A stretch of DNA of 64,000 nucleotides from Spirochaetae bacterium HGW-Spirochaetae-3 (GTDB taxonomy: Bacteria; Spirochaetota; Spirochaetia; Treponematales; UBA12059). Position numbers and translations under genes: made by a program. Positions 5,926-61,798 of this stretch are shown in pieces. Numbering within the stretch: the stretch's first letter is position 1; each line of letters opens with the position of its first letter. The DNA lies in contig PGXV01000006.1 in assembly GCA_002839315.1 (NCBI GenBank), forward strand, positions 311,176 to 375,175. Reading direction: 5' to 3'. Below the pieces are notes generated by a model. That model searched no databases, was not told where the DNA came from, and saw only the letters and a list, made by a program, of their open reading frames with translations.

Positions 5926-6597
5926 ATGGCATTGCACGGTAACGGTCGGATCATATCGACGATCAAGGATCAGGTATATTCCGTCATCAAGGAAAATATC
6001 CTCAACGAGCATTTCAAGCCCGGGCAGCGGCTCCAGGAGCTCCAGATCGCGAAAGAGCTGAACGTCAGCCGCTCCCCGGTACGGAGCGCCATCAACGAGT
6101 TGATAGGCGAGGGCTTGCTCGAGAGCATCCCGAATAAAAGCGTCATGGTCAGGCGCCTCTCCGAGAAGGACATCGTCGACGCCTACGAGTTCCGCCTCAT
6201 CGTCGAGGGATTCGCCGTCCAGCGGACGATAGAACTGATGGATGGCGCCATAGCCGAGCGGCTTCGCACGTTCCGGAGCGATTTCGCGAGTCACGACGAC
6301 TTCGGCGCTATCCAGGAATACATAAAAATCGACACCGCGTTTCACGAATTCCTCGTGTCTACCGCGGGGAACGCTATCCTGATCGACTCGCTCGACAAGG
6401 TATCCATGCTTATTACTCCGTTCCGCGTTTTTTCCTTATCCAGCCAGCAGCGGTTCCTCGACTCGATCGATGAGCATACGGGCTTGATCGACGCGATACT
6501 CGATCGGGACGCGGTCCGCGCCGCGGATATCTGCACTGCGCACCTCCGTCTCGCTAAGGAAGAGATCATAAAGCATCTCCGCTCTGCCAACCTCTGA
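5926..6597 (+). CDS. GntR-family transcriptional regulator (FCD type)
   Basis: 223 residues from the ATG at 5926. The N-terminal winged helix shows ILNEHFKPGQRLQELQIAKE and VSRSPVRSAINELIGEGLLE, the hallmark of GntR proteins; the C-terminal two thirds is the helical FCD ligand domain (EFRLIVEGFAVQR, DTAFHEFLVSTAGN, DEHTGLIDAILDRD, and AADICTAHL), whose His/Asp residues usually bind a metal and a carboxylic acid. FCD regulators typically control organic-acid or sugar-acid genes, and it is followed, after its own terminator, by such genes, whose promoter carries a perfect palindrome. It is therefore very likely their regulator, probably a repressor relieved by the hydroxy-acid substrate (inference). 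An alternative ATG at 5902 adds eight residues. Confidence 0.9.
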   Translation: MALHGNGRIISTIKDQVYSVIKENILNEHFKPGQRLQELQIAKELNVSRSPVRSAINELIGEGLLESIPNKSVMVRRLSEKDIVDAYEFRLIVEGFAVQRTIELMDGAIAERLRTFRSDFASHDDFGAIQEYIKIDTAFHEFLVSTAGNAILIDSLDKVSMLITPFRVFSLSSQQRFLDSIDEHTGLIDAILDRDAVRAADICTAHLRLAKEEIIKHLRSANL

Positions 6598-6639
6598 CGC
6601 CGCTCGATATATATTCCGATAGTAGGCCGAGCGCCTTGA

Positions 6640-6670
6640 GAGCCATGCGTCTTCCGCATGGCTCTTTTTT
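6640..6670 (+). terminator. Intrinsic terminator of the GntR gene
   Basis: A perfect 10-bp stem (GAGCCATGCG / CGCATGGCTC) with a 5-nt loop is followed by six T. It separates the regulator transcript from the larA-like operon. Confidence 0.9.
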
Positions 6671-6671
6671 A

Positions 6672-6699
6672 TTGACATGACTCAATACCCGTGTATTAT
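6672..6699 (+). promoter_or_regulatory. sigma70-type promoter of the larA-like operon
   Basis: TTGACA (6672-6677), a 16-nt spacer and TATTAT (6694-6699) lie about 65 nt upstream of the larA-like start. The -35 is a perfect consensus and overlaps the end of the GntR terminator; the -10 lies inside the operator palindrome. Confidence 0.7.
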
Positions 6700-6712
6700 G
6701 TATACATAATAC
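6693..6712 (+). promoter_or_regulatory. Operator: perfect 20-bp palindrome over the -10 box
   Basis: GTATTATGTATACATAATAC is a perfect inverted repeat centred on ATGTATACAT, similar in core to operators bound by FCD-type GntR regulators (TTGTATACAA-like). A partial third half-site, ACATAATACC, follows directly. Its overlap with the -10 predicts repression, most likely by the GntR protein encoded upstream. Confidence 0.75.
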
Positions 6713-6765
6713 ATAATACCTAGTGTCGTTCTACATCGCCCGTTCGAGGGCAAAGGAGTGCAACG

Positions 6766-8034
6766 TTGTTCATTGATTTGCCGTATGATTCCGGCCGTAT
6801 ACAGCTGTCGATCGTCGACGAGCGGGTTGCCGGCATACTGACCGTACCTGGCCGCGGTACGACGGGCCGTTCGCAGGAAGACATCATCCGCGACGCGCTC
6901 CGATCGCCTATAGGCTCGAAGCCTCTATCCGAGCTGGCCGTAGGGAAAAACAAGGTCGTCGTCATCACGAGCGATCATACGAGGGCTGTCCCCAGCGCAC
7001 TGACTCTTCCCCTGCTGCTCGAGGAGGTACGCAAGGGGAATCCCGACGCCGATATCACCGTCCTCGTCGCCACCGGGCTGCACCGGGGCATGACGCCTGA
7101 GGAGATGAAAGCCAAGTTCGGCGAGGCCGTCTGCGCCAGCGAGCGTATCGTCAACCACGACGCGTACGATACGGACGGATTCGTCGACCTGGGCGTCCTG
7201 CCGTCGGGTAGCAAGTGCGAGATAAGCAGGCTGGCAACCGAGGCCGACCTGCTCGTCTCCGAGGGCTTCATCGAACCCCACTTCTTCGCCGGCTTCTCCG
7301 GGGGACGCAAGAGCGTGCTGCCCGGCGTCGCCTCCCAGGACTGCGTCAACATTAACCACAGCGCGAGCGCCATCCAGCATCCGCGGGCGGCTACCGGAGT
7401 CTTATCGGGTAATCCGATACACGAGGATATGATCAAGGCCGCCAGGATGGCGAACCTGGCGTTCATATTCAACGTGCTCCTCGACGAGGAGAAGCGCGTC
7501 ATAGCCGCGTTCTGCGGCGACGCCGACGCCGCGCACCGGGCCGGCTGCGAATTCCTCCTCGACCGGAGCGGCGTCGATCCCGTCAAGGCGGACATCGTCG
7601 TCACGACGAACGGCGGCTACCCCCTCGACCAGAACCTGTACCAGTGCCCCAAGGGCCTCGACGCGGCCCTTGCCTGCGTCAACGACGGCGGCGTGATCAT
7701 ACTCGTCGCGGCGTGCAAGGACGGCCTCGGCGGCGAGAATTTCGGCCGCATGATGCTCGAGGGAACGCCCCGGGAACTGCTCGACCGCATCCTGGCCACC
7801 GCGCCGGAGAAGACGGTCTCCGAGCAATGGTGCGTGCAGCGATTCGCCGACGCGCTGATCAAGTACAGGATCATCCTGGTGACGGCCGGCATTGACCGCG
7901 CCACCGTAGAGAGAATGAACTTCATATACGCGGAGACCGTCGACGAGGCCTTGTGCAAGGCGTACGAACTGACGGGTCCTCGATCAAAGGTCGCGATACT
8001 GCCGGACGGCGTCTCGGTTATCGTGAGGAGGTAG
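6766..8034 (+). CDS. larA: LarA-family nickel-pincer racemase/epimerase
   Basis: 422 residues, starting at a TTG with AAAGGAGTG 7 nt upstream. The family (lactate racemase, DUF2088) uses a nickel-pincer nucleotide tethered to a Lys to racemise 2-hydroxy acids by hydride transfer. The signature residues are present: SDHTRAVP, TGLHRGMTPEE (H106), EPHFFAGFSGGRKSVLPG (H172 and the cofactor Lys K182) and NHSASA (H198). These sit two positions below the catalytic His, cofactor Lys and nickel-ligand His I recall for Lactobacillus LarA. Family members act on lactate, malate, hydroxyglutarate, phenyllactate or gluconate, so the substrate is open; the neighbouring UxaA-like dehydratase and GntP permease favour a sugar acid. 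The cofactor genes larB, larC and larE are not in the window. Confidence 0.88.
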   Translation: MFIDLPYDSGRIQLSIVDERVAGILTVPGRGTTGRSQEDIIRDALRSPIGSKPLSELAVGKNKVVVITSDHTRAVPSALTLPLLLEEVRKGNPDADITVLVATGLHRGMTPEEMKAKFGEAVCASERIVNHDAYDTDGFVDLGVLPSGSKCEISRLATEADLLVSEGFIEPHFFAGFSGGRKSVLPGVASQDCVNINHSASAIQHPRAATGVLSGNPIHEDMIKAARMANLAFIFNVLLDEEKRVIAAFCGDADAAHRAGCEFLLDRSGVDPVKADIVVTTNGGYPLDQNLYQCPKGLDAALACVNDGGVIILVAACKDGLGGENFGRMMLEGTPRELLDRILATAPEKTVSEQWCVQRFADALIKYRIILVTAGIDRATVERMNFIYAETVDEALCKAYELTGPRSKVAILPDGVSVIVRR

Positions 8035-45755: not shown

Positions 45756-47270
45756 TTACTCTATCGTGCCGGTGAAGGTCGCGAATTTCGTCTCGTCGAC
45801 GCTAGACAGAGCGGCCTGGTCGGCTACGACTATCCAGCTTATCGGGGCGTCGACTACGTAGGCCTTTACGACCGCGACGACGTCTTCGGGGCGTATCGCG
45901 TTGATCTTGTCGATGAAGCGCAGGTACTCCAGATGGTCGCCCGAGTAGATGTAGCCTGACGCGAGCTGGGCCGCCGTATCGGCGTTCGTCGCCTGATCGC
46001 CGAAGAACGAGTTGACGTATTTGGCCTTGTACGCCTCTATCGTAGACGCGATCGGCGCGTACTTGTCTTCGCCGCCCTTGATGTTGAGCGTCTTGCCCGA
46101 CGCCAGCAGCGCTATCGCCTCGTCGACCCAGGCCTTGGCGTCGCTCGGCCTGTCGGTCTTGTAGACGACCAGCGAGCCGTACGCGCCGTAGAAGCCGAAC
46201 GCGCGCGACCATACCGAGTAGCAGGCTCCGTGATCGGTCCGGACGATGCTGAAGAGGAGCTCGTCGAGCATCTTATAGGCGAGCTGCAACGTGACGAAGT
46301 CCGGGCTGCGCGGATCGGCTATCGGGTAATCGCCGCGCACGTAGGCGACGCCCTGGGCCTTGCTGAATTCCTCGAGATACAGCGTCCTCCTGGGCTCGAA
46401 GGCGCCGGCCTCGGGAACCGCTATGCCTTTCCGGGCCATCGCGCCGATAGTCGCATCGAGCGAGGCGGCCAGCGAGTCTGCGTCGAGGTTCCCGACCGCG
46501 ACGACGACCATGCGCTCCGGGGCGAACGTGTCGCCGTAGTACGCCTTGACGTCGTCGAGCGTGATCGCCGAGACGGACGCCGCGGTACCGGCAAAGTCGG
46601 CCGCGTAAGGATGCCCCGCGAACATGTTTTCGTGGAGCCTGGAGACGGCGAAGCTGTACGGGTCGGCCATGGCCTTCTGGAGGCTTACCTTGAAGTCGTT
46701 CTGCACCTCGGTGAACTGGGCGGGATCGAACGCGGGATCGAGGACGCAGTCGATGAAGACGGCGAACATCTCGTCCCAGTACTTGTCGATGGTGTTGAGG
46801 TCGAAGCTTGCCCAATCGTAGTTCGCGGCGCTGTACCCTATCGAGCTCGACCGTTCGTACTGCAGGCGCTGGATCTCGGCGTACGGATGGCGTACCGAGC
46901 CGCGGGCCAGCATGGCGAGCGTCATCGCCTCGATGCCGGCCTTCTGGGGCGTCGTCATCGCCGAGCCCCCGCGAAGGGCGATCTTCATCGTGAATACGCG
47001 GTTCGCGGGATTCTTCTTTACTATAAGCGTCATCCCGTTCGATAGCGTACGCGTCTCTATGGTCGGCAGGTTGGCATTCATGAAGGCGCTCGGCGTCGAC
47101 GGCGCCTTCCATGTAGATACCGGCTCGCGAGGCAGGCTCCATGCCGCTTCGGTTTCTGGGGACTCCGGTTCCGGGGCGCTCGCGCACGACGCGGCTATGG
47201 CGGCCGCGAGGACCGTCGCGACGATGACGCGGGACGCGGGGCTTCTATCGCTGTATTTCCTGAGGCTCAT
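45756..47270 (-). CDS. M16-family peptidase homologue, probably non-catalytic partner (lipoprotein)
   Basis: 504 residues with lipobox AASC near residue 35. It carries the M16 fold (TRTLSNGMTLIVKKNP, then SVRHPYAEIQRL and FSKAQGVAYVRGDYP), but where catalytic members have HxxEH it reads GIEAMTLAMLARGS, without the zinc-binding His pair. It is encoded directly after the catalytic member at 47270 (stop and start overlap as TAATG), the arrangement seen in paired M16 proteases in which one subunit carries the metal and the other forms the closing half. Being a lipoprotein, it works in the periplasm or at the outer membrane. Confidence 0.85.
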   Translation of the reverse strand: MSLRKYSDRSPASRVIVATVLAAAIAASCASAPEPESPETEAAWSLPREPVSTWKAPSTPSAFMNANLPTIETRTLSNGMTLIVKKNPANRVFTMKIALRGGSAMTTPQKAGIEAMTLAMLARGSVRHPYAEIQRLQYERSSSIGYSAANYDWASFDLNTIDKYWDEMFAVFIDCVLDPAFDPAQFTEVQNDFKVSLQKAMADPYSFAVSRLHENMFAGHPYAADFAGTAASVSAITLDDVKAYYGDTFAPERMVVVAVGNLDADSLAASLDATIGAMARKGIAVPEAGAFEPRRTLYLEEFSKAQGVAYVRGDYPIADPRSPDFVTLQLAYKMLDELLFSIVRTDHGACYSVWSRAFGFYGAYGSLVVYKTDRPSDAKAWVDEAIALLASGKTLNIKGGEDKYAPIASTIEAYKAKYVNSFFGDQATNADTAAQLASGYIYSGDHLEYLRFIDKINAIRPEDVVAVVKAYVVDAPISWIVVADQAALSSVDETKFATFTGTIE

Positions 47271-48736
47271 TATTTTCCGTCCTTCCACCAGAACGCGTTG
47301 TCCGGGCTCACGATCCTGAATCCAGCGGCGGCCAGCGAGTCTGCTTCTGCGGTATAATCGGCGGGATTGAGCCGTATAGCGACCACCGGGACGTTCGAAA
47401 CCACGAATTTGTCCAGGAACGCGCCGATGTCCCGCCGCTGTACCTTCTTCATGTTCGGTACGTAATCGAAGAAATAATCGGTAGAGGCTACCGACCACCA
47501 GAACGACAGGGTCGAGATGAATCGATCGGGAGTCTCGAGATCGAGTATCTGCTCGTCCTCGATCTTACGCTTGACGACGTCGAATTCCGCGTCCGAGAAG
47601 TACGCGGGGTCGGCCGTCATGGCCCGTATCTCCCCCAGGGCGACCGCGTCCTTGAAGGCCTTCCCGGCCCTGTCGGCGAGGGGAAGGGCCGGGTCGACGA
47701 AGCAGTAGGTATAGAACGATACCTGCCCGCCATCCCGCTGGGTAAAGTAATAACCCCCGATATAATCCTTGTCGTATAGGGCCGGTACCTCGTTAAAGAG
47801 GTTCGTCTTGAAGCGGCCGTCGGGGGCCCCGATGAGATAACCCCACACGTCGGCCGCGTAGGTCGGCTCCGGTTCCGAGAGTACGTCGGGGCCCCGGTAC
47901 CGGGTCTCTATATAGGCGATGCCCTCCGGTAGCGAATCGTCGGGGTAGGCGAGGTAGGCGGGCGCGTCGACGCCCGGCATCGGGTGGGCCGGCGCCGGCG
48001 ACTCCCACGGGTCGGGGCCTTCCTTCCATTCGCCGTACCATTTCTTGGCCATCGCATAGACCTTGTCCGGATCGACGTCGCCGCCGACGAACAACGCCGC
48101 GTTGTTCGGCACGTAGTACGTTGACTGTATCGACCGGAGCGACCCGACGGTCGCGGAGCGGACGACCGCTTCGTTGCCGCCTATATCGCGGCGCCATGGA
48201 TACGCGGAGAAGAGCGCCTTGTCCATCGCGGCCGAGTAGACGTGGTCCGGATCGGATAGATAGCCGTTGATCTCGTTGGACACGACGCCTTGTTCTATCG
48301 TCAGCTCCTCGTCGTCGAATAGCGGTTCCCTCATCGCGTACGACCAGAACTCCAGCCCCGCCTCGGTCTTGTCGGACGGGACCGTGAAGTAGTAGCTGAC
48401 GTATTCGGTGGAGGTGCCGCCGTTCCATTCGGCGACGCCCAGATCGGTCATCGCCGCCGAGAATTCGGTTTCCGTCCTATAACGTGAATTGCCCTTGAAA
48501 AGCATGTGCTCGTACAGATGGAAGAGGCCCGCCGTTTCAGGCGTCTGGGCGATCGATCCGCAACGGAAGGTAATCTGTACCTTCGCGAGCGGTACGGTAT
48601 GGTTCTCGAGCACGAACAATTCCAGGCCGTTGTCCAGTCGGTACCGATGAAGCCCCGGAATGGGCGTCTCGTCGGAATACGACGGCATCGTGGCCGCGAT
48701 AGCCATCGCCACCGCTATCGCCAGTAGTCTTCTCAT
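47270..48736 (-). CDS. M16-family zinc peptidase, catalytic partner
   Basis: 488 residues. The start MRRLLAIAVAMAIAATMPSYS is a signal peptide, with AAGGAGG 8 nt upstream of the ATG. HLYEHMLFKG supplies the HxxEH zinc motif (H73, E76, H77) and ELTIEQGVVSNEI about 72-78 residues on supplies the third ligand. The C-terminal half is the inactive M16 domain. It should degrade peptides or process proteins in the periplasm with the lipoprotein encoded downstream. An upstream ATG at 48790 is in frame but lies upstream of the ribosome site and inside the promoter. Confidence 0.88.
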   Translation of the reverse strand: MRRLLAIAVAMAIAATMPSYSDETPIPGLHRYRLDNGLELFVLENHTVPLAKVQITFRCGSIAQTPETAGLFHLYEHMLFKGNSRYRTETEFSAAMTDLGVAEWNGGTSTEYVSYYFTVPSDKTEAGLEFWSYAMREPLFDDEELTIEQGVVSNEINGYLSDPDHVYSAAMDKALFSAYPWRRDIGGNEAVVRSATVGSLRSIQSTYYVPNNAALFVGGDVDPDKVYAMAKKWYGEWKEGPDPWESPAPAHPMPGVDAPAYLAYPDDSLPEGIAYIETRYRGPDVLSEPEPTYAADVWGYLIGAPDGRFKTNLFNEVPALYDKDYIGGYYFTQRDGGQVSFYTYCFVDPALPLADRAGKAFKDAVALGEIRAMTADPAYFSDAEFDVVKRKIEDEQILDLETPDRFISTLSFWWSVASTDYFFDYVPNMKKVQRRDIGAFLDKFVVSNVPVVAIRLNPADYTAEADSLAAAGFRIVSPDNAFWWKDGK

Positions 48737-48761
48737 GGTATGAGCCTCCTTGGGCCGGTAC

Positions 48762-48790
48762 AGCGTAGGAGAGGCAGAACGGCCTGTCAA
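48762..48790 (-). promoter_or_regulatory. Promoter of the M16 pair
   Basis: TTGACA, a 17-nt spacer and TACGCT on the minus strand lie about 25 nt before the ATG at 48736. The in-frame ATG at 48790 falls inside this promoter. Confidence 0.65.
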
Positions 48791-51518: not shown

Positions 51519-51547
51519 ATTGTATCCGTTGCGCCGATCAGGGTCTA
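51519..51547 (-). promoter_or_regulatory. Promoter of a leaderless manA transcript
   Basis: TAGACC, a 17-nt spacer and TACAAT on the minus strand end 6 nt before the ATG at 51512. It lies within the last codons of the dinG-like gene. Confidence 0.55.
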
Positions 51548-53973
51548 GCGACGAATTCCCGCAACCCGGCGGCCAGTTCCGCGAGCGGCTTGAAGCACGT
51601 ATTGGTTTTCGGCAACGACGATACGAATACCCGGCCGTAGCGCTTGGCAAGCAGGCGAGAGTCGAGCACGACGACGGCGCCACGATCCTCGGAATGGCGT
51701 ATGAGCCGCCCGAAGCCCTGCTTGAAGCGTATGACCGCCTCCGGAAGAGACAGGTCCATGAACGAGTTGCCTCCGCGACGTTCCACCGCCTCGGCTCGGG
51801 CCTTCTGCACGGGATCGGTCGGAACGCGGAACGGTAGCTTGGTGATGATAACGAGCTGCAGCGTCTCGCCGGGCGCGTCGACGCCTTCCCAGAACGAGTC
51901 CGTAGCGAACAGCACGCTCGATACGTCCGCTACGAATGCGTCCATGAGCCTCGAACGCTCGTCGTCGCCCTGACGGAAGGCCGTTATGCCCAGAGCGTCC
52001 AGGCGCGGCTTGACCGCGTCCCATGCCGACCGTAGCGCCGTATACGACGTGAACAGCACGAGCGCCTTGCCTCCTGACGCTTCCACGAGCGTATAGATCG
52101 CCTCGTTTATCCATGCCTGCCACTCGGGCGAGGTGGGGTCCGGCGCGTCGTCGGGCGCGCCGAGAAGGGCGTTGCGATCGAAGGGGAAGGGGGACGGGAA
52201 CGCCATGCACTCGGCTCGCGCGCCGGTATTGGACAATCCGACGCGCCGTTTCCAGAATTCGAACGAATCGCCGACCGAGAGCGTCGCCGACAGACAGACG
52301 ACCGCGCGGAACTGGTCGAACACCGCTTCGTTCATCGTATCGGAGATGTCGAGAGGCGTGACGCAGAAGCGGGCGAACGCCTCTCCCTGACTCGTCTTGC
52401 CGCGGTCGAGCCAGTATACGTTAGCGGGGTCCTCGTCAAAGCCCTGGAAACGGGCGCAGACGGCCGCGAGCGACGACAGCCGGGCCAGGGCCAGCTCGGC
52501 CTCGCGGACCGACTGGTCGCCTTCGACCTCTTCGGGCACGTCGTCGAGCGCGTCCTTGATAAGTTCGGCGATAGACAGTATCGCCCGTTCCACTCCCACG
52601 AGCGGCTTGAGGACGGACGCCTCTATGGCCGGGCTCCTTGCCGCGAGCCTGAAATTCATGGCCGGGCCGATGAGCGCCAAGGCCGCTGCGTCGGCCGTAT
52701 CCATGGCGGCGAACAGCGCGTCCGCGGCGTCGGGAAACCGCTTGAGCACGCCGGGCGGCAGTCCCTTGAGGTTCTGCAACTTGACGATAACGCCGAACTT
52801 TCTGCCTCTCCGTTCCCTGTACAGCCTGGAACTCTGCTTGAGTACGGAGAATTTGGTCAGCTCGTCGGAGAAGAAACTCGTCGCGCTCGACTCTATCGCA
52901 TGGGCCTCGTCGAATATGATGGTACCGTACGGAGGAAGCACCGCCGTCGATTCGTAGCCGGCGCCGCCCGATCGCGCGGCCAAGTCGCTGAATAGTATAT
53001 GGTGGTTCGCCACGATCAGGTCGGCGTCGGCCGCGTCGCGCTTGACCTTGAGCACGAAGCACGACTCTCGGAACGGGCAACGCATGTTCAGGCAATCGTC
53101 GGCCTCCGAGCGGACGCGCGACCACAGCGATTCCTCGGGCCAGAAAGACAGGTCCGAGCGGTCGCCCGTCGCGCTGGTCTCCGCCCACGCGGCTATACGG
53201 CGGAGAGGATGCTCGTCGTCCGCGAACAGGCCTTCCTCCTCTATCGCTTCCTGAAGCCGTGTCCGGCACAGGTAGTTGCCTCGTCCCTTGACGAGTACGG
53301 CCTTGAGACTCTTCTTGAAGATCGACGCGACGAGCGGAATGTCCTTGTCCATCAGCTGGCGCTGCAGGTTTATGGTGGCGGTGGATACGACGACGCGCTC
53401 CTTGTTGCGGGCGGCCCACGCGAAGGACGGTATCAGGTACGCGAACGACTTCCCGACGCCGGTCCCGGCCTCGGCCGCCAGCACGTAACCGCCGTTCATC
53501 GCCTCGGCGATGGAGCGCACGAGGTCTATCTGGCTCCGCCTCGGCTCGTAGTCCGGCAGGCGCGCGGCAAGCTTCCCGCCTTTTTCCAGCACGCCGGCCA
53601 GCTCGTCGGGGTCTATGGCGACGAGAGCCCTCGCCCTGACCGGCTCGGCGATGACGTAGACGTTCCGGACGTCGCCGTCGACGATATACGAACCGACGCC
53701 GTTCTCGCCGACGCGGGACGCCACGGCGAGGTCCGCGTCGCTAGGCTCGAGGATGCCCGAGGGGTGATTGTGTATCAATACGTCGCCGCGGTCCAGGAAC
53801 CCCGCGATAGCGGGTACGCTCGAGACGCCGCCGCGGGCGCCGACGACGATCTCGAAGACGAGGCCCCTCTCGTCGAGCCTGCCTGCGGCGAATACCTCGT
53901 TGTAGCCCGCGTCCGCTATCGCGTCCCTGAGTTGCGCCGTCGCCTCTTCGGTGAACCGTTCGCCCGCCCGCAT
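51538..53973 (-). CDS. JAB-domain/DinG-type helicase fusion
   Basis: 811 residues from the ATG at 53973 (GAGG 9 nt upstream). The first 120 residues form a RadC/JAB-like metalloprotease fold: AAGRLDERGLVFEIVVGARG, VLIHNHPSGILEPSDADLAV (the HxHPSG...PSxxD signature) and VGSYIVDGDVRNVYV. The rest is a DinG/XPD-type superfamily 2 helicase: Walker A AEAGTGVGKSFAY, an Fe-S domain with C in NYLCRT and DDCLNMRCPFRESC, DEAH box IIFDEAHAIE, and QGFGRLIRHSED at the end. DinG unwinds R-loops and D-loops. The fused JAB domain is not part of E. coli DinG and may recognise a partner or cleave a modifier-like tag; RadC-type JAB domains are often non-proteolytic. Confidence 0.87.
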   Translation of the reverse strand: MRAGERFTEEATAQLRDAIADAGYNEVFAAGRLDERGLVFEIVVGARGGVSSVPAIAGFLDRGDVLIHNHPSGILEPSDADLAVASRVGENGVGSYIVDGDVRNVYVIAEPVRARALVAIDPDELAGVLEKGGKLAARLPDYEPRRSQIDLVRSIAEAMNGGYVLAAEAGTGVGKSFAYLIPSFAWAARNKERVVVSTATINLQRQLMDKDIPLVASIFKKSLKAVLVKGRGNYLCRTRLQEAIEEEGLFADDEHPLRRIAAWAETSATGDRSDLSFWPEESLWSRVRSEADDCLNMRCPFRESCFVLKVKRDAADADLIVANHHILFSDLAARSGGAGYESTAVLPPYGTIIFDEAHAIESSATSFFSDELTKFSVLKQSSRLYRERRGRKFGVIVKLQNLKGLPPGVLKRFPDAADALFAAMDTADAAALALIGPAMNFRLAARSPAIEASVLKPLVGVERAILSIAELIKDALDDVPEEVEGDQSVREAELALARLSSLAAVCARFQGFDEDPANVYWLDRGKTSQGEAFARFCVTPLDISDTMNEAVFDQFRAVVCLSATLSVGDSFEFWKRRVGLSNTGARAECMAFPSPFPFDRNALLGAPDDAPDPTSPEWQAWINEAIYTLVEASGGKALVLFTSYTALRSAWDAVKPRLDALGITAFRQGDDERSRLMDAFVADVSSVLFATDSFWEGVDAPGETLQLVIITKLPFRVPTDPVQKARAEAVERRGGNSFMDLSLPEAVIRFKQGFGRLIRHSEDRGAVVVLDSRLLAKRYGRVFVSSLPKTNTCFKPLAELAAGLREFVARP

Positions 53974-53987
53974 CGCCGTCGCCAGCC

Positions 53988-56789
53988 TCAGTACGATACG
54001 GCGAGCATGAACGCTACGCCGTGGTTGGGGGCCTCCGCATCCGGCAGGTCCGGCCGATACCAGAATTCCAGGTATGATACCGGGTGGAACGATGCGAGCG
54101 CTCCCCGGGCCGGAGTCCAGGTAAGGCTGGCGCGTCCGAATACCGACCACCCCGTATCCGAGGCTCCGTTGTCGATGTCCGGTCCGGATGCGAGGTACCC
54201 GCGGCCGCCGGCCCGTATGGACAGTCCGTTGGCGTAGAATATTCCGGCGCCGCGCTGGATGCGCGTACCGAGTAGCCGTAGGCTCGCCTCTCCCTCGGCG
54301 AACCAGGCTCCCGCGGCGCCTCCGTCGAATTCGGCCCAGACGGGGTATGAGGCGGCGATGGTTGCCCCGGAGGCGTATCGTCGGCCTTCGGGGCCGTAGG
54401 CTATCCCGTCGGTCGCCGCGACCGCCGCGTACGCCGAGGCGGCGATGGCCCAGGGGCTTAGGTATCCGTCCAGCTCTAGCTCGACGCCGAACGTCGGGGA
54501 CGACAGGGCCGGGTAGACCGGCGTATCGATCCGCGCCTTGGCTGCGGCGCCGTATCCCGTGGCGGCTTCGACGTCATCCAGGGGCGACCGCCTATCGGTC
54601 CGTCGGGCTGAAACCTCGACTGCCGCCTGAGCCGACTGCCAAGGGGCATAGGGCGATGCCCCCGCGACGGTTAAGGCCGAGCCCCGGAGGGCCGTCTGGG
54701 CGCTCCACGATAACGATCCGCCGGAGAACGGATACGCAGCGCCGGAAATTCCCAGGGTCGCCGCTGAAATCCTCGTCGTATAGTCCGAACCCGACCGCTT
54801 GAAGGTATCCTCGAATCCCATGTTGACGGGCGTCGAGAAACGGGACCACGACGCCTCTAGCTCGACGTCGGCGGCTTCCGCACGGAAATTCCAGTCGGCG
54901 CCGACCATGAGACTGAAGCGCTCTGCGGGGTCCTCTATGAACGATACGAAACCCAGCGTCTCCAATCCGTCGGCGCTGACGGATCCGATGGGTAGCCAGA
55001 ACCGAGGCGCCAGCCAGCGGTACGCGCGATACGGCCCCGCGATTAGCCTCGGCCGGGCGTCGTAGACCGAAACCGCCGAAAGCAGTTCCGGCGCGGCCTC
55101 CCACACGACCGCCGCCTCTACGAAGCCCAGCCGGGACCGATCCTCGGGGAACGCGCACGGCGCTATGCCGCCGGAGAAGCGTCCCAGGTAATAAACGCGA
55201 CCGGCGGCCTCGACCGGCTCGTGGACGCCGCCCGTAACGGGCACGGTCTGATACCGTAGCGAGTCGCCGTCGAGCTCGGCGACTCTGTAGAACGAGTCGT
55301 CGTCCCACGAGAACCTGAGGACTCCGCTTCCGTCGAGCGACAGGTACCGTACCCATGTCACCCCGTCAGGTAGCCTCAGCCTGTCGACCGAAGCGACCTG
55401 CCCGTCCTGGCCTTCCGATACGACGCGGATTATCGACGCCTTCCCGGATTCCTTCGCGATCGCGTACAGGGTCCTGCCGTCCGTCGCCGCGACGGGAGAA
55501 GAGTAGGCCAGGCTTTCGGTTCCGGAAAGCAGGGTATAGGTCTCGTCTCCCTGCAGCATGACCAGGTCCGTCTGATACCCGTCCACGGCTATGCCGACGA
55601 TCGCCTTCGGTCCGGGCAGGTAGCACGCGTCTCGGACCTCGCTCGCCGCCAGGTCGTAAAGCCGTTCGGACGCCGCGTCCCATTCCTTGAGGACGAGCCT
55701 CGGGAATCCGGATTCATGGCGGATCGTCGAGAGGAGCAGCCTCGAGCCGTCGTATGAAGCGTCGATGCGCGAAACCTCAAGGCCCGCGCGGAACAGCGCC
55801 CGCTCCTGCCCCGATGCCGGGTCGTAGGCGTATACCTTCCCGTCGGCGCGGTCGGCGTAATACAGACTCGAGCCGCGCGCGGAGAGCGCCGTGACGCGGG
55901 ATAACTCGCGAAGGGGCTCTGTCGCCGTGTATACGGGCGCTCGCAGCGTCATTGATTCCTTGAAATCGTCCCATGCCTCCGATAGTCCCGTCTCGTAGAT
56001 CCGGTAGAATCGCCCTCGACCCAGGAGCCCGTCGTCCAGGCCGCGGAACGCCGAGCCGGCGCCGAAGCGGCGCCATAATTCGGCATAGGCCGCCATGCCG
56101 TAGCGTTCCTGCAGGTAACGCGAGAAATAGCCGCCGTAGAGATAGTAGAGGCTTCGGTCCGGGTAGAGATCGTATGCGCCGGAGGCCTGGGCGAAGGTCT
56201 TCCATCTGCCTTCTACGATATCCTGGCGCAGTACGGCGCCGGCCAACGGATCGACGGCCCTTCCATGGCCGTCGAGACTCTCGAAGGACACGGTCACGCC
56301 CTCGACGAAGGATAGCGGCGCTAGGTACGGCGAGACGCCGAGCGGCGAGCCGAAGATCCCGACGACGGCGTCCTCTAGTTCCGATCGGATCGAAAGCGAG
56401 ACCGCGTGCGTCAGTTCGTGGTAGAACAGGGAGCGAAGATCGTCCCGGAACGATCCCAGCGACGAGTCGGCGTCCGTCGGCGCCTGGTACAGGACGATAC
56501 GGGGATATGGCGTCCACGTGTAGTATCCGTTGGCCAGTTCCGAATCGGGCGTCAGCACTACGGGTAGGCGTCGGCCCGGGACGGTCCTCAGCAATGATGC
56601 GATCTCGCGGTAGGCATCGTCGGCGAACGAAGCGAGGTACTCCGCCGCCGGCCCGGACTCCGCGGCGAATATGATCGAGAAGTACTCGGTCTCGAGGATG
56701 TTGAGCGGCCTGTCGGGGGAGAAGAGATCGGCCGTCGCTGAACAGACGGCGATGGCGGCCATTCCGGCCGCCATTAGCATGCGCTTCAT
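53988..56789 (-). CDS. Secreted gluzincin-like metalloprotease with propeller and outer-membrane barrel
   Basis: 933 residues, start with GGAGG 6 nt upstream and a signal peptide (MLMAAGMAAIAVCSATA). Residues 30-250 resemble the peptidase-MA domain: FYHELTHAVSLS gives HExxH (H124, E125, H128), and FVEGVTVSFES supplies the likely third ligand (E163) 35 residues on. Residues about 300-640 show TolB/WD-like blades (YADRADGKVYAYDPASGQE, YAIAKESGKASIIRVVS). The last 280 residues are alternating strands (FSLMVGADWNFRAEA, FGVELELDGYLSPWAIA) ending in FMLAVSY, like an outer-membrane barrel. The protease would be held at the surface or periplasmic face by the barrel. It is encoded upstream of the dinG-like gene, 14 nt apart. 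Confidence 0.8.
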   Translation of the reverse strand: MKRMLMAAGMAAIAVCSATADLFSPDRPLNILETEYFSIIFAAESGPAAEYLASFADDAYREIASLLRTVPGRRLPVVLTPDSELANGYYTWTPYPRIVLYQAPTDADSSLGSFRDDLRSLFYHELTHAVSLSIRSELEDAVVGIFGSPLGVSPYLAPLSFVEGVTVSFESLDGHGRAVDPLAGAVLRQDIVEGRWKTFAQASGAYDLYPDRSLYYLYGGYFSRYLQERYGMAAYAELWRRFGAGSAFRGLDDGLLGRGRFYRIYETGLSEAWDDFKESMTLRAPVYTATEPLRELSRVTALSARGSSLYYADRADGKVYAYDPASGQERALFRAGLEVSRIDASYDGSRLLLSTIRHESGFPRLVLKEWDAASERLYDLAASEVRDACYLPGPKAIVGIAVDGYQTDLVMLQGDETYTLLSGTESLAYSSPVAATDGRTLYAIAKESGKASIIRVVSEGQDGQVASVDRLRLPDGVTWVRYLSLDGSGVLRFSWDDDSFYRVAELDGDSLRYQTVPVTGGVHEPVEAAGRVYYLGRFSGGIAPCAFPEDRSRLGFVEAAVVWEAAPELLSAVSVYDARPRLIAGPYRAYRWLAPRFWLPIGSVSADGLETLGFVSFIEDPAERFSLMVGADWNFRAEAADVELEASWSRFSTPVNMGFEDTFKRSGSDYTTRISAATLGISGAAYPFSGGSLSWSAQTALRGSALTVAGASPYAPWQSAQAAVEVSARRTDRRSPLDDVEAATGYGAAAKARIDTPVYPALSSPTFGVELELDGYLSPWAIAASAYAAVAATDGIAYGPEGRRYASGATIAASYPVWAEFDGGAAGAWFAEGEASLRLLGTRIQRGAGIFYANGLSIRAGGRGYLASGPDIDNGASDTGWSVFGRASLTWTPARGALASFHPVSYLEFWYRPDLPDAEAPNHGVAFMLAVSY

Positions 56790-57056: not shown

Positions 57057-59858
57057 ATGGCGATGACCGTAGGACAGAAAGCCACCGTTAGTCTACTCGC
57101 CTCGACGCTCCTGGCCGCCGGCTTTGCCGCGCTGGCCTATTCCGGTTTATTCTCCGTCATAGAGACCAGGTTCTTCGATGAGCGCGTCAAGCGATCGGTA
57201 GAGTCCTCGGTCGAGGCCCTGTCAGCGTCGGCGGACGCCTACCACGCGCTCAACGCGGATCGATTCTCCGGCATCCTCGGGAACGACTACGTGCGGAGGA
57301 GCTTCCTGCCGAACCAGAGCGCTCAGGACGCGTTCGACAGGACCAGGACTTTCGGCCTCCTCGCCGAGGAGACGCCGGGGTTGCTCGGCGTCCGGTTCGT
57401 CGACCTGGATGGCAAGCGCATCCACTTCAGCACCTTCCCCGGCGACGTAATCCGTTCGGAATCGCTCAGGATCGTCTACCGTAACTATGGCGAGCCCGGA
57501 GATGAGCCGTACGTCGACATAGAAGGCGCCGAAGGATCGAAGGTGACGGTCTCGGCGCTGCCTTCCAGGCGCGCCTTCGCCTATCGGTTCCCCTTCATGG
57601 ACGGATTCGGGGTCTATCGCGGCAGCGCCGTCTTCTACGTAACGTTTACCGGATTCCTGCAGCGATTGATCCAGGATGGCCGCATCGCGCTCGGCGACGA
57701 TATCGTCGCGGTCGGAACGCAGGGCGTCCTGGCCGGCGCGCCGGCCTGGGGCGGCGAGGAACTCCTGTCGCGCATAGCGTCGATATGGGCTTCCGGGCCC
57801 AACGCCGAGCCCGTCGTCGTCGGCTCGTCCGAAGCATCTGGCTCGTTCATGCTGTTTACCGTTCGCGGCGAGGCTGGACTCGTCGGTCGGCTCGTCCCAT
57901 CTTCGTGGTTCGAGATGCCCGACTCGTTCCGTTGGCTCCTCCTGACCGCCTTCTTCATTACCGTGTACCTTTCTCTGTTCCTCGTCCTGAACCTGAGGCA
58001 GGATCGCTTCGCCGTGCTCGCCACGCGGATCAAGCGCTTCCAGATAGAGCTTCTAGAGGAATATCTGGAGCGCAAGGGCGACATGGACGTAGAGCGGTGG
58101 AAAGGCGAGCTGGAAGCGCGCCGGGGAGAGACGCGGGAGCGTATACGCAAGAGCGCCGGCAGGTTGGCCAAGAAGCGCGCCTCAGACATCGATGCGCTTA
58201 TAGATAAATCATGGGACGAGATAATCGCCGTCATGACGTCGCGGGGTGAGCGGCCCGGCGGCGTCGACATGGCGAGGTTCGAGGCCCTGCTCAAGGAAGC
58301 CTTGAGCAAGGGATCCTTCGTGATAGGGGCCTCCCAATCGGATACACCTCGACTCGTGGCTCCCGCGCCTTCGGTGGTCACCAGCGCGCGCGTAGAACCC
58401 GAGACCATCGAGGATGTTGAAGAGTTAGCTGAGCTCGATGAAGCCGAAGAGCTTGAAGAATTAGAAGAGATCGAAGCAGCCGAGGAAGCCGAGGAACCGG
58501 CGGAGGCGGAGGCAGAGCTAGCCGAGGACGTGGAAGAGCTCGCCGAGCTAGAGGAAGCGGAAGAGGCAGCCGAGGAAATCGAGGAACCAGTAGAGGCAGA
58601 GGCAGAGCTAGCCGAGGACGTGGAAGAGCTCGCCGAGCTAGAGGAAGCGGAAGAGGCAGTCGAAGAAGCCGAGGAACCGGCAGAGGCAGAGCTAGCCGAG
58701 GAAACCGTTGAGCCGGCAGAGGCAGAGCTAGCCGAGGACGTGGAAGAGCTCGACGAGCTAGAGGAAGCGGAAGAGGCAGTCGAAGAAGCCGAGGAACCGG
58801 TAGAGGTAGAGGTAGAGGTAGAGGCAGAGCCAGCCGAGGACGTGGAAGAGCTCGCCGAGCTAGAGGAAGCGGAAGAGGCAGCCGAGGATATTGAAGAACT
58901 GGAAGAACTCGAGGAATTGCCTGAAACTGCTATCGCCGAGACACTGGAATGGGGAAGTCTGTCGGCGGAGGCTCTGGCCTTGGCTATGGACGACGAGGAC
59001 GATCTGCCGATCATCCCCGAGAGTCTCGGCCTCGAGCTCGTCGAGGAAACCGACCTGGCCGATATCATAGGATACCTGGATTCCGGTTCAAAGGACAGCA
59101 GGGCCGTAACCGAGGATGGCGTCTGGGCGGAACGGCCCATGCTTGAAGAAGCGAATTCGAGCGACGACGAGGCGATGACGAAGCTCGTTTTCACCTCTCC
59201 GCTGGAAGAACTCGCGGAGACGGTCCTCGAATTGGACGATGACCCGGATCTGCCGACTGATACAGTCGAGGTTATCCAGTCGCTGGAAGAGAAAGAATCC
59301 GTAGAAGCGTCCGAGACGGCCATGTACGAGCTCCTCGAAGAGGTCGAATTCGACTTATTCCTGAACGCTCTCGACCTGAGCGGACTCGACGGCTATAGCG
59401 ACGACGACGGATTCCTCGAGCTGGACGACTCCAGTTTCTCTAAGATGATAGGCGAGCCGATCCCCGCGCCCGACTATTCCGTTGAAGATCTCGGAGACGA
59501 GATATCCATGCTGTCAGACGAGCAGCGAGAGCGCATAGAAGAACTTCAGCCGGTCGAGATAGAAGACTCCGAGGCTACCGACGTCGAACCCTTGATAGGA
59601 TCCGGCTACCGGCAGATACTCAGCGCTATTTCGTATCATCGCCGCGATATGCCGACCTCCGCGATCGAGGAATTACCGATAGTCGCGGAAACCGAGCCCG
59701 ATGAGGCCCTCCCGGTCGAGGAACGCGAATCAAGCGACGTCATCGTGATGGTAGACGGAATCTATACCATCAACCGCGAGGGGATCGCGGACTGTAGCCC
59801 CGAGGATCGATCCCTGAAGGCCCTGGCCGATTCCGTGCTGGCCCACCGCGGCGCTTGA
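57057..59858 (+). CDS. Membrane sensor-like protein with long Glu-rich repeats
   Basis: 933 residues. A transmembrane helix lies at 10-32 (VSLLASTLLAAGFAALAYSG) and another near 300 (WLLLTAFFITVYLSLFLVLN); between them is a periplasmic region resembling Cache domains (FGLLAEETPGLLGVRFVDLD, AYRFPFMDGFGVYRGSAVFY). The cytoplasmic part has a coiled coil (IELLEEYLERKGDMDVERW), then about 170 residues that are almost pure Glu/Ala/Leu/Val repeats (EDVEELAELEEAEEA), then an acidic tail with no kinase, HAMP or MCP signalling domain. The sigma-28-type promoter suggests a motility-linked role. The acidic region could act as a spacer, cation buffer or docking scaffold; none is proven. Confidence 0.75.
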   Translation: MAMTVGQKATVSLLASTLLAAGFAALAYSGLFSVIETRFFDERVKRSVESSVEALSASADAYHALNADRFSGILGNDYVRRSFLPNQSAQDAFDRTRTFGLLAEETPGLLGVRFVDLDGKRIHFSTFPGDVIRSESLRIVYRNYGEPGDEPYVDIEGAEGSKVTVSALPSRRAFAYRFPFMDGFGVYRGSAVFYVTFTGFLQRLIQDGRIALGDDIVAVGTQGVLAGAPAWGGEELLSRIASIWASGPNAEPVVVGSSEASGSFMLFTVRGEAGLVGRLVPSSWFEMPDSFRWLLLTAFFITVYLSLFLVLNLRQDRFAVLATRIKRFQIELLEEYLERKGDMDVERWKGELEARRGETRERIRKSAGRLAKKRASDIDALIDKSWDEIIAVMTSRGERPGGVDMARFEALLKEALSKGSFVIGASQSDTPRLVAPAPSVVTSARVEPETIEDVEELAELDEAEELEELEEIEAAEEAEEPAEAEAELAEDVEELAELEEAEEAAEEIEEPVEAEAELAEDVEELAELEEAEEAVEEAEEPAEAELAEETVEPAEAELAEDVEELDELEEAEEAVEEAEEPVEVEVEVEAEPAEDVEELAELEEAEEAAEDIEELEELEELPETAIAETLEWGSLSAEALALAMDDEDDLPIIPESLGLELVEETDLADIIGYLDSGSKDSRAVTEDGVWAERPMLEEANSSDDEAMTKLVFTSPLEELAETVLELDDDPDLPTDTVEVIQSLEEKESVEASETAMYELLEEVEFDLFLNALDLSGLDGYSDDDGFLELDDSSFSKMIGEPIPAPDYSVEDLGDEISMLSDEQRERIEELQPVEIEDSEATDVEPLIGSGYRQILSAISYHRRDMPTSAIEELPIVAETEPDEALPVEERESSDVIVMVDGIYTINREGIADCSPEDRSLKALADSVLAHRGA
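58512..58880 (+). repeat. Imperfect tandem repeat of about 90 bp encoding Glu-rich segment
   Basis: The block GCAGAGCTAGCCGAGGACG recurs at 58512, 58602, 58722 and (with one change) 58824, so units are 90, 120 and 102 bp; a partial copy begins at 58687. A GGTAGA hexamer is further amplified around 58799-58822. The pattern indicates recent slippage within the coding frame. Confidence 0.85.
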
Positions 59859-60645: not shown

Positions 60646-60878
60646 ATCGCGGCCGGGCGGCCCTGAGAGGCGTCCTCCTGTCGCTCCTCGGCGCCGTAGC
60701 GGTCGCGATAGCGGCCGTCGGCGTGGTGTGGCCGATATGGTACCTGGCTACAGCCCATACAGGCGTCTATACCCTGCTGTGCCTGGTAGCGGCGGGCGCT
60801 GGTCTCTCATGGACCCTGATAGGCAAGGGCAGACGACGACGACGCGCGCGAGCGGCGGAAGCGCCTGCCTCGCCATGA
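60642..60878 (+). CDS. Small two-helix membrane protein
   Basis: 78 residues with two transmembrane helices (GVLLSLLGAVAVAIAAVGVV and TLLCLVAAGAGLSWTLI) and a very basic C-terminal tail (KGRRRRRARA), so the tail should face the cytoplasm. ATG overlaps the previous stop, and its own stop overlaps the M23 start (ATGA). No family recognised; the position suggests it works with the adjacent envelope proteins. Confidence 0.7.
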   Translation: MNRGRAALRGVLLSLLGAVAVAIAAVGVVWPIWYLATAHTGVYTLLCLVAAGAGLSWTLIGKGRRRRRARAAEAPASP

Positions 60879-61798
60879 GGCTCCCGTTCCTCGCTCTCGC
60901 CTGCGCGGCCGCGGCAACCCTGGCCTCCGCGCAGGGAGCGGGGACGAAGACGAGCGAGTATCCGCCGATCGGGCGGCTGTCGCCGCGCGACCTGGTATTC
61001 AAGCAGGTGCAGGATTCACTGTCGCAGGGATATCAAGCCGAGAAGAACGCGGGGGAGTACCCCGACCTTTTCATCTGCCGTTGGACCGCAGTCGGCGGAG
61101 AGGATTTCTTCTCCGTGGCCGCCCGGCTATCCATCCCGTACGAGACGCTCGCGACGCTTAACGGCCTGGGTAGGCCTCGGGAATTCGCTCCGGGAGAAAC
61201 CGTCCTCGTACCATCGGTGGCCGGGCTGTTCGTGCCCGACGCGCCGCGTACCGACCTCGACATGCTCCTCTCGGCCCGGTCTCATGACCCGACGGCGCAA
61301 TCGAAGCGGATCTCCTTGATAGTGGCTGGCAGGGAAACGCTATTCTCGTTCTACCCCGGAGCCAGATTATACCAGACCGAGCGATCGTTCTTCCTGAACG
61401 TCGGCTTTCGTATGCCGTTGCCCGAAGGGGTGTTCACGAGCGGCTACGGATTCCGACGAAGCCCGATAGACGGGCACGACCGCATGCATGAGGGGATAGA
61501 CCTCGCGGCTCCGTACGGTACCGACGTGATGGCCGCCCGAGAGGGAATCATCGAGGCGGTCGGCGAGGATCCTACGCTCGGAATGCGCGTGATCATAGAC
61601 CACGGCGGTGGAATACGGACGATATACGGACATCTTTCAAGCGTTTCTATCGAGTTGAACCAAACGGTTCGATCGGGTACAATACTAGGAGCCGTCGGTT
61701 CTTCCGGCTTGTCTACCGGCCCGCATCTGCATTTTGAGATACGGCTCAGCGGTAAGGCCAGGGATCCTTCGAGTTACCTACCCGGGTTGAAGCCATGA
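60875..61798 (+). CDS. M23-family peptidoglycan endopeptidase with LysM-like segment
   Basis: 307 residues. A signal peptide (LPFLALACAAAATLASA) is followed by a LysM-like segment (FSVAARLSIPYETLATLNGL) and a LytM/M23 domain: DGHDRMHEGIDLAAPYGTDV gives the first His and Asp ligands, VIIDHGGGIRTIYGHLSSV the strand and His, and SSGLSTGPHLHFEIRLSG the final HxH. It should cleave peptide cross-links in peptidoglycan, or act as a regulator of amidases. Overlapping start and stop with its neighbours place it in a four-gene cluster with the PEGA protein downstream (ATGA). Confidence 0.9.
   Translation: MRLPFLALACAAAATLASAQGAGTKTSEYPPIGRLSPRDLVFKQVQDSLSQGYQAEKNAGEYPDLFICRWTAVGGEDFFSVAARLSIPYETLATLNGLGRPREFAPGETVLVPSVAGLFVPDAPRTDLDMLLSARSHDPTAQSKRISLIVAGRETLFSFYPGARLYQTERSFFLNVGFRMPLPEGVFTSGYGFRRSPIDGHDRMHEGIDLAAPYGTDVMAAREGIIEAVGEDPTLGMRVIIDHGGGIRTIYGHLSSVSIELNQTVRSGTILGAVGSSGLSTGPHLHFEIRLSGKARDPSSYLPGLKP

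Follow-up and report, generated by a model that had tools for sequence, protein, structure and literature searches.

A divergent, Pfam-invisible peptidase MA-propeller-Omp85-like protein found across most of the Spirochaetota, with an orthologue in Treponema pallidum

Proteins in which a beta-propeller precedes an Omp85-type barrel were described by Heinz and Lithgow in 2014 as the 'WD40-Omp85' subfamily, a class without POTRA whose description, in the passages devoted to it, names the propeller and the barrel and mentions no peptidase domain (PMC4104836). An enzyme placed N-terminal to a 16-strand outer-membrane barrel is known from PlpD, a type Vd patatin-Omp85 protein of Pseudomonas aeruginosa whose enzyme domain had long been regarded as displayed on the surface until it proved to be periplasmic only (PMC11116518). 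Two further systems resemble single parts of the protein analyzed here, i.e. TolB, a soluble protein that contains a six-bladed propeller together with a TolB_N domain, and BepA, an M48 protease of outer-membrane assembly that works periplasmically at the outer membrane through a HExxH motif and bears a TPR domain and no barrel. Pfam family PF00149 is a phosphoesterase family. It is under this family that Heinz and Lithgow, in the corresponding part of their text, discuss metalloproteins in another Omp85 class (PMC4104836).

The window (the whole stretch of 64,000 nucleotides of Spirochaetae bacterium HGW-Spirochaetae-3 that was analyzed) contains a gene encoding a 933-amino acid protein, whose features are collected in Table 1. 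Like the WD40-Omp85 class the protein has no POTRA, and it carries a metalloprotease and a propeller where PlpD has a patatin lipase and POTRA. The first-pass annotation had placed it correctly at 53988-56789, and the frame is that of the minus strand: in the reverse complement it runs uninterrupted from an ATG at 56789 to a stop at 53988, and the plus strand across the same interval contains many stops. No direct family match was obtained with the 933-amino acid protein against Pfam, NCBIfam or PHROGs. An AlphaFold2 model of the whole chain, a check that the annotation had proposed, was built from a 61-sequence alignment and reached a pLDDT of 92 and a pTM of 0.92; a single-sequence model was discarded for its pLDDT of 34. 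The model consists of an alpha/beta N-terminal domain, about 24 short propeller strands and 16 long C-terminal strands, and this high-confidence three-part architecture supports the earlier proposal that a single polypeptide combines protease, propeller and outer-membrane barrel. Residues 1-19 have low pLDDT in the model, and the homologues have a hydrophobic N terminus.

Table 1. Features of the 933-amino acid protein gene and its downstream neighbor (positions in the window)
Feature	Coordinates	Strand	Basis
Complete gene, ATG to stop, 933 aa	53988..56789	-	homologues keep the frame without stops
Probable signal peptide, residues 1-20 (MKRMLMAAGMAAIAVCSATA)	56730..56789	-	read from sequence, pLDDT, homologues
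Gluzincin-like (peptidase MA clan) domain, residues 27-285	55935..56711	-	profile match and model
HELTH, residues 124-128: two predicted metal ligands and the catalytic Glu	56406..56420	-	invariant
E163, putative third metal ligand, in VEGVTVSFES, next long helix	56301..56303	-	invariant
Six-bladed TolB-type beta-propeller, residues 287-554	55128..55931	-	model, VIA-align, profile matches
Propeller-barrel linker, residues 555-596; 32-91 aa in homologues	55002..55127	-	model
Predicted 16-stranded outer-membrane beta-barrel, residues 597-933	53991..55001	-	model, dyad hydrophobicity, beta-signal, first-strand alignment
Longest barrel loop, residues 792-828, strands 11/12	54306..54416	-	model, loop analysis
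C-terminal beta-signal, residues 922-933, last residue Tyr	53991..54026	-	homologue C-termini
DinG-like helicase, begins about 10 nt downstream, start approximate	51538..53977	-	reading frame

The HExxH motif (H124-H128) with a glutamate 35 residues on, from which a metalloprotease had been proposed, is present as HELTH with E163 exactly 35 residues after H128. The four residues H124, E125, H128 and E163 do not vary among 27 or among 61 homologues with overall identities as low as about 20%, nor in an alignment extended to two non-spirochaete relatives, and since the ligand set is invariant across relatives the HExxH is not a chance motif. In the model the HExxH lies on helix 117-131 and E163 on helix 159-170, which is the gluzincin arrangement of a HExxH motif and a conserved Glu on the following helix. 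Profile-profile comparison of the peptidase domain with Peptidase_MA_2-bearing proteins gave an E-value of 6.5e-26 (reversed control, 0.44), and E163 aligned with the glutamate of WFVEGLAEYES in the latter. Judged from its sequence profile, the 933-amino acid protein is homologous to the Peptidase_MA_2 proteins despite the absence of a direct Pfam match, and it is predicted to bind a metal and to be proteolytically active.

The propeller-like blades recognized earlier correspond to a TolB-type propeller of six four-stranded blades, with a VIA-align Z of about 22 over residues 287-554; in the comparison of this segment of the model with TolB and designed 'Pizza6' propellers, Z was 20-22. At the sequence level the propeller gave profile matches to 1l0q, Lp49 and TolB, and its comparison with the Peptidase_MA_2-PD40 proteins gave a profile E-value of 5e-10 (reversed control, 0.5). 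The match lists of Foldseek and VIA-align with the whole model were filled by the propeller, and a search of a viral library was uninformative. Unlike TolB, which is soluble and has TolB_N, the 933-amino acid protein holds its propeller between peptidase and barrel, and no TolB_N domain was found in this genome.

The C-terminal strand-rich region was modeled as 16 strands (residues 597-930) of alternating hydrophobicity: with strand boundaries taken from the AlphaFold2 model, the in/out alternation was 0.325, compared with 0.146 +/- 0.026 in the controls (1000 shuffles, same profile). The aromatic tail is a feature of the family, the last residue being aromatic in 57% of the 61 homologues versus a background of 13%. 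Positions -1, -3, -5, -7, -9 and -11 of these 61 C termini are 77-85% hydrophobic and the intervening ones 16-30%, except for position -6 (51%), a pattern that fits the outer-membrane beta-signal. Sixteen strands are also the number found in Omp85 barrels, and the longest loop (median of 35 residues) lies between strands 11 and 12. Loop L6 of Omp85 barrels sits between strands 11 and 12. By inspection, this loop has no conserved instance of the (V/I)RG(F/Y) motif of Omp85 L6, and POTRA is absent before the barrel, the region there being propeller in the model. The barrel alone had no match in Pfam (including PF01103) or among PDB sequences, and no significant match to distant Omp85 homologues by profile comparison. 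Because no Omp85 sequence hallmark was found, the barrel is not filed as a proven Omp85 member.

The link to Omp85 came from relatives. When public genomes were scanned with the family alignment, 70 loci were recovered, almost all of them from spirochaetes and two from outside. The first-pass annotation had proposed a search for the same domain order in other spirochaetes, and this order is found through most of the phylum. The claim that this order was undescribed did not hold, because the two non-spirochaete proteins (L099 and L100) show the same order in Pfam terms (Peptidase_MA_2 - PD40/DPPIV_N - Omp85) and L109 and L115 nearly the same, and because the propeller-Omp85 class had been published in 2014; relatives in the genomes of L099 and L100, or in related ones, are organized alike or nearly so. 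Among the spirochaetes, a second subfamily (L118-L120 and L122-L124) has HEYTH in place of HELTH and a Pfam-recognizable PD40, with Omp85 in two members. In these two, L120 and L122, Pfam finds PD40-Omp85 after the HEYTH peptidase-like region.

The HEYTH homologues matched the family of the 933-amino acid protein over the full length, extending into the first barrel strands (E 4e-49), and when the barrel part alone was compared with them its first strands aligned (E 4e-4; reversed control, 0.45). The barrels of the HEYTH homologues themselves matched Omp85 barrels with a profile E-value of about 2e-9, and those of L120 and L122 pass the Pfam Omp85 cut-off. The HEYTH subfamily appears as the evolutionary bridge between the Pfam-visible and the Pfam-invisible forms, and because it spans the gap, by the first-strand match on one side and its own Omp85 barrels on the other, we read the barrel of the 933-amino acid protein as strongly diverged Omp85-type, i.e. 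'Omp85-like, divergent', short of a proven member. With the Peptidase_MA_2 - PD40 - Omp85 proteins it shares the order of parts, a length of about 930-1020 amino acids, a C-terminal barrel with beta-signal, and a colinear profile match through peptidase and propeller; it differs from them in having no Pfam-scoring domain and a barrel too divergent to be recognized alone. On these comparisons, the 933-amino acid protein represents a branch of the peptidase MA - propeller - Omp85-like class that has diverged beyond recognition by Pfam.

A homologue is present in 48 of 59 close relatives, as a rule one per genome. In a sample of 197 genomes of the Spirochaetota, 141 gave matches, mostly one or a few each. 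The family occurs in host-associated spirochaetes and, commonly, in environmental, apparently free-living ones. It is absent from every listed member of a small-genome spirochaete family (f7, 1.0-1.8 Mb), which is probably Borrelia, and thus the protein is dispensable in some spirochaetes. Homologues of the DinG-like helicase lie near the gene in 15 further loci with no evident functional link, and the gene neighborhood was rejected as a clue to function because it holds housekeeping neighbors only (the DinG-like helicase, and mutL and pyrG in T. pallidum). The wide retention of the gene together with its housekeeping neighbors suggests a housekeeping or general envelope role.

Several other genes of the window were recorded. 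The divergently transcribed upstream neighbor (57057-59858, plus strand), whose product combines a hydrophobic N-terminal segment with a long repetitive stretch rich in Glu and Ala (EEAEEPAEAE...), remains beside the gene in close relatives. At 60728-61798 on the plus strand, inspection by eye revealed a LysM-like and M23-type peptidase frame, a second envelope hydrolase nearby, and at 45759-48790 on the minus strand lie two adjacent, mutually related genes, a probable M16 peptidase pair, the second of which carries HLYEH (HxxEH, M16 peptidase-like). Residues 1-344 of the 933-amino acid protein are encoded with 100% identity at 6001-7032 of a contig (L033, PHBR01000023.1) from the metagenome-assembled genome 'Chloroflexi bacterium HGW-Chloroflexi-9'; that contig also bears the upstream neighbor and is apparently a spirochaete contig binned or labeled as Chloroflexi.

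We consider it rather probable that the 933-amino acid protein is a secreted, outer-membrane-anchored zinc metalloprotease of the envelope, a branch of the peptidase MA - propeller - Omp85-like class that cleaves periplasmic envelope substrates. The C-terminal 16-stranded barrel would be inserted by BAM through its beta-signal and would anchor the chain, the TolB-like propeller on the periplasmic face would serve as a docking platform, and the gluzincin domain (H124, E125, H128 and E163) would cut envelope substrates in the periplasm. These substrates would most likely be exported proteins, of the outer membrane or others, that are misfolded or immature, in a quality control or processing role similar to that of E. 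coli BepA; the likeness to BepA, as a periplasmic HExxH protease at the outer membrane, is one of function and not of homology.

The same architecture could belong to a barrel-centred assembly or transport factor, BamA/TamA-like with a BamB/TolB-like propeller and the peptidase as an accessory, which is the kind of role that Heinz and Lithgow proposed for WD40-Omp85 in the part of their article on that class (PMC4104836). Such a role would be in agreement with the existence of the propeller-Omp85 class, with the 16 strands and the long loop between strands 11 and 12, and with the alignment of the first strands to Omp85-type homologues, but the long loop has no conserved (V/I)RG(F/Y), and conservation falls from the catalytic domain, whose catalytic residues vary least of all, to the barrel, which varies most, whereas a barrel-centred function predicts the reverse. 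This gradient speaks for a membrane-held protease and against a transport barrel to which the protease would be an accessory. Moreover, a separate BamA-type Omp85 is encoded in the genome, which argues that the 933-amino acid protein is not the assembly factor itself, and we hold the assembly role to be doubtful.

The first-pass annotation had suggested a surface protease carried by its own barrel, different from autotransporters with a beta-helix passenger. The difference stands, since the model has a propeller and a 16-strand barrel rather than the 12-strand barrel of type Va autotransporters, and surface exposure is unsupported. A barrel that has an even number of strands and closes with a beta-signal keeps its two termini in the periplasm, and the peptidase and propeller would by default be periplasmic unless they are actively threaded through. 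The closest analogue studied by experiment, PlpD, likewise has a periplasmic enzyme domain (PMC11116518). The loops predicted to be extracellular have a mean length of 9.8 (sd 2.6) compared with 6.0 (sd 1.2) on the other side, a gap that comes mostly from one loop and agrees weakly with this orientation. By the barrel topology and the PlpD analogy, the most likely place of action of the protease is the periplasmic face of the outer membrane.

A self-displaying surface protease, with peptidase and propeller threaded or carried by the barrel and acting outside the cell, would accommodate the signal peptide, protease and barrel in one chain and the relatives in host-associated spirochaetes, and if true it would represent a new kind of self-displaying protease. 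However, the barrel follows about 530 residues taken up by the folded peptidase and propeller, it is Omp85-like by strand number and position of its longest loop, no autotransporter-like 12-strand barrel appears in the model, and environmental spirochaetes that seem to be free-living commonly have the protein too. Surface display of the peptidase is unlikely, and the complete scenario is distinctly improbable. That the C-terminal region folds into a soluble domain rich in beta-sheet and no membrane barrel, an outcome that the first-pass annotation had named against itself, would suit the absence of any sequence match of the region alone to known barrel families but is extremely improbable, given a strand alternation far beyond that of shuffles, the beta-signal in 61 homologues, the 16 consecutive long strands at high confidence and the Pfam Omp85 matches of homologues at the equivalent place.

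The family extends to the syphilis spirochaete. In a T. pallidum-like relative (G032), the orthologue (L101:2086-5205) sits between mutL and pyrG, which is the gene order of TP0303-TP0305. Published coordinates put TP0304 at the matching position (PMC7112178), the family profile covered positions 9-908 of 911 of TP0304 with HELTH intact (single-target E-value, 8e-129), and the barrel profile alone matched it with a single-target E-value of 1.7e-9. TP0304 is thus the T. pallidum orthologue of the 933-amino acid protein. TP0421, annotated as a TPR protein, was rejected as the counterpart. TP0304 is annotated as hypothetical, was once named 'Peptidase MA' in an annotation survey (PMC4403809), is used for typing, has short repeats that are reported to vary (PMC2408589, PMC10499264) and is unmentioned in the text of a structural survey of the outer-membrane proteins of T. 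pallidum (PMC8407342). It differs from the 933-amino acid protein by a Gly/Asn/Cys-rich insert (CANGGGNGNCCGNNGGQQCCACNGQ) in the predicted barrel loop between strands 7 and 8. This insert would be extracellular given the default orientation, and is possibly the site of the reported strain variation; no tandem repeat was found. As to the broader proposal of spirochaete-wide self-displaying metalloproteases with surface-exposed peptidase and propeller, among which TP0304 would be an unrecognized surface protease of the syphilis spirochaete, we regard it as very improbable.

Taken as an outer-membrane-anchored envelope protease, the 933-amino acid protein would join the short list of enzymes fused to Omp85-like barrels, and it defines a conserved, unannotated outer-membrane protease family, as predicted here, for most Spirochaetota. 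The significance lies mainly in this breadth within the spirochaetes and in the connection to TP0304, a hypothetical protein that gains a fold, catalytic residues open to testing and a predicted place in the outer membrane.
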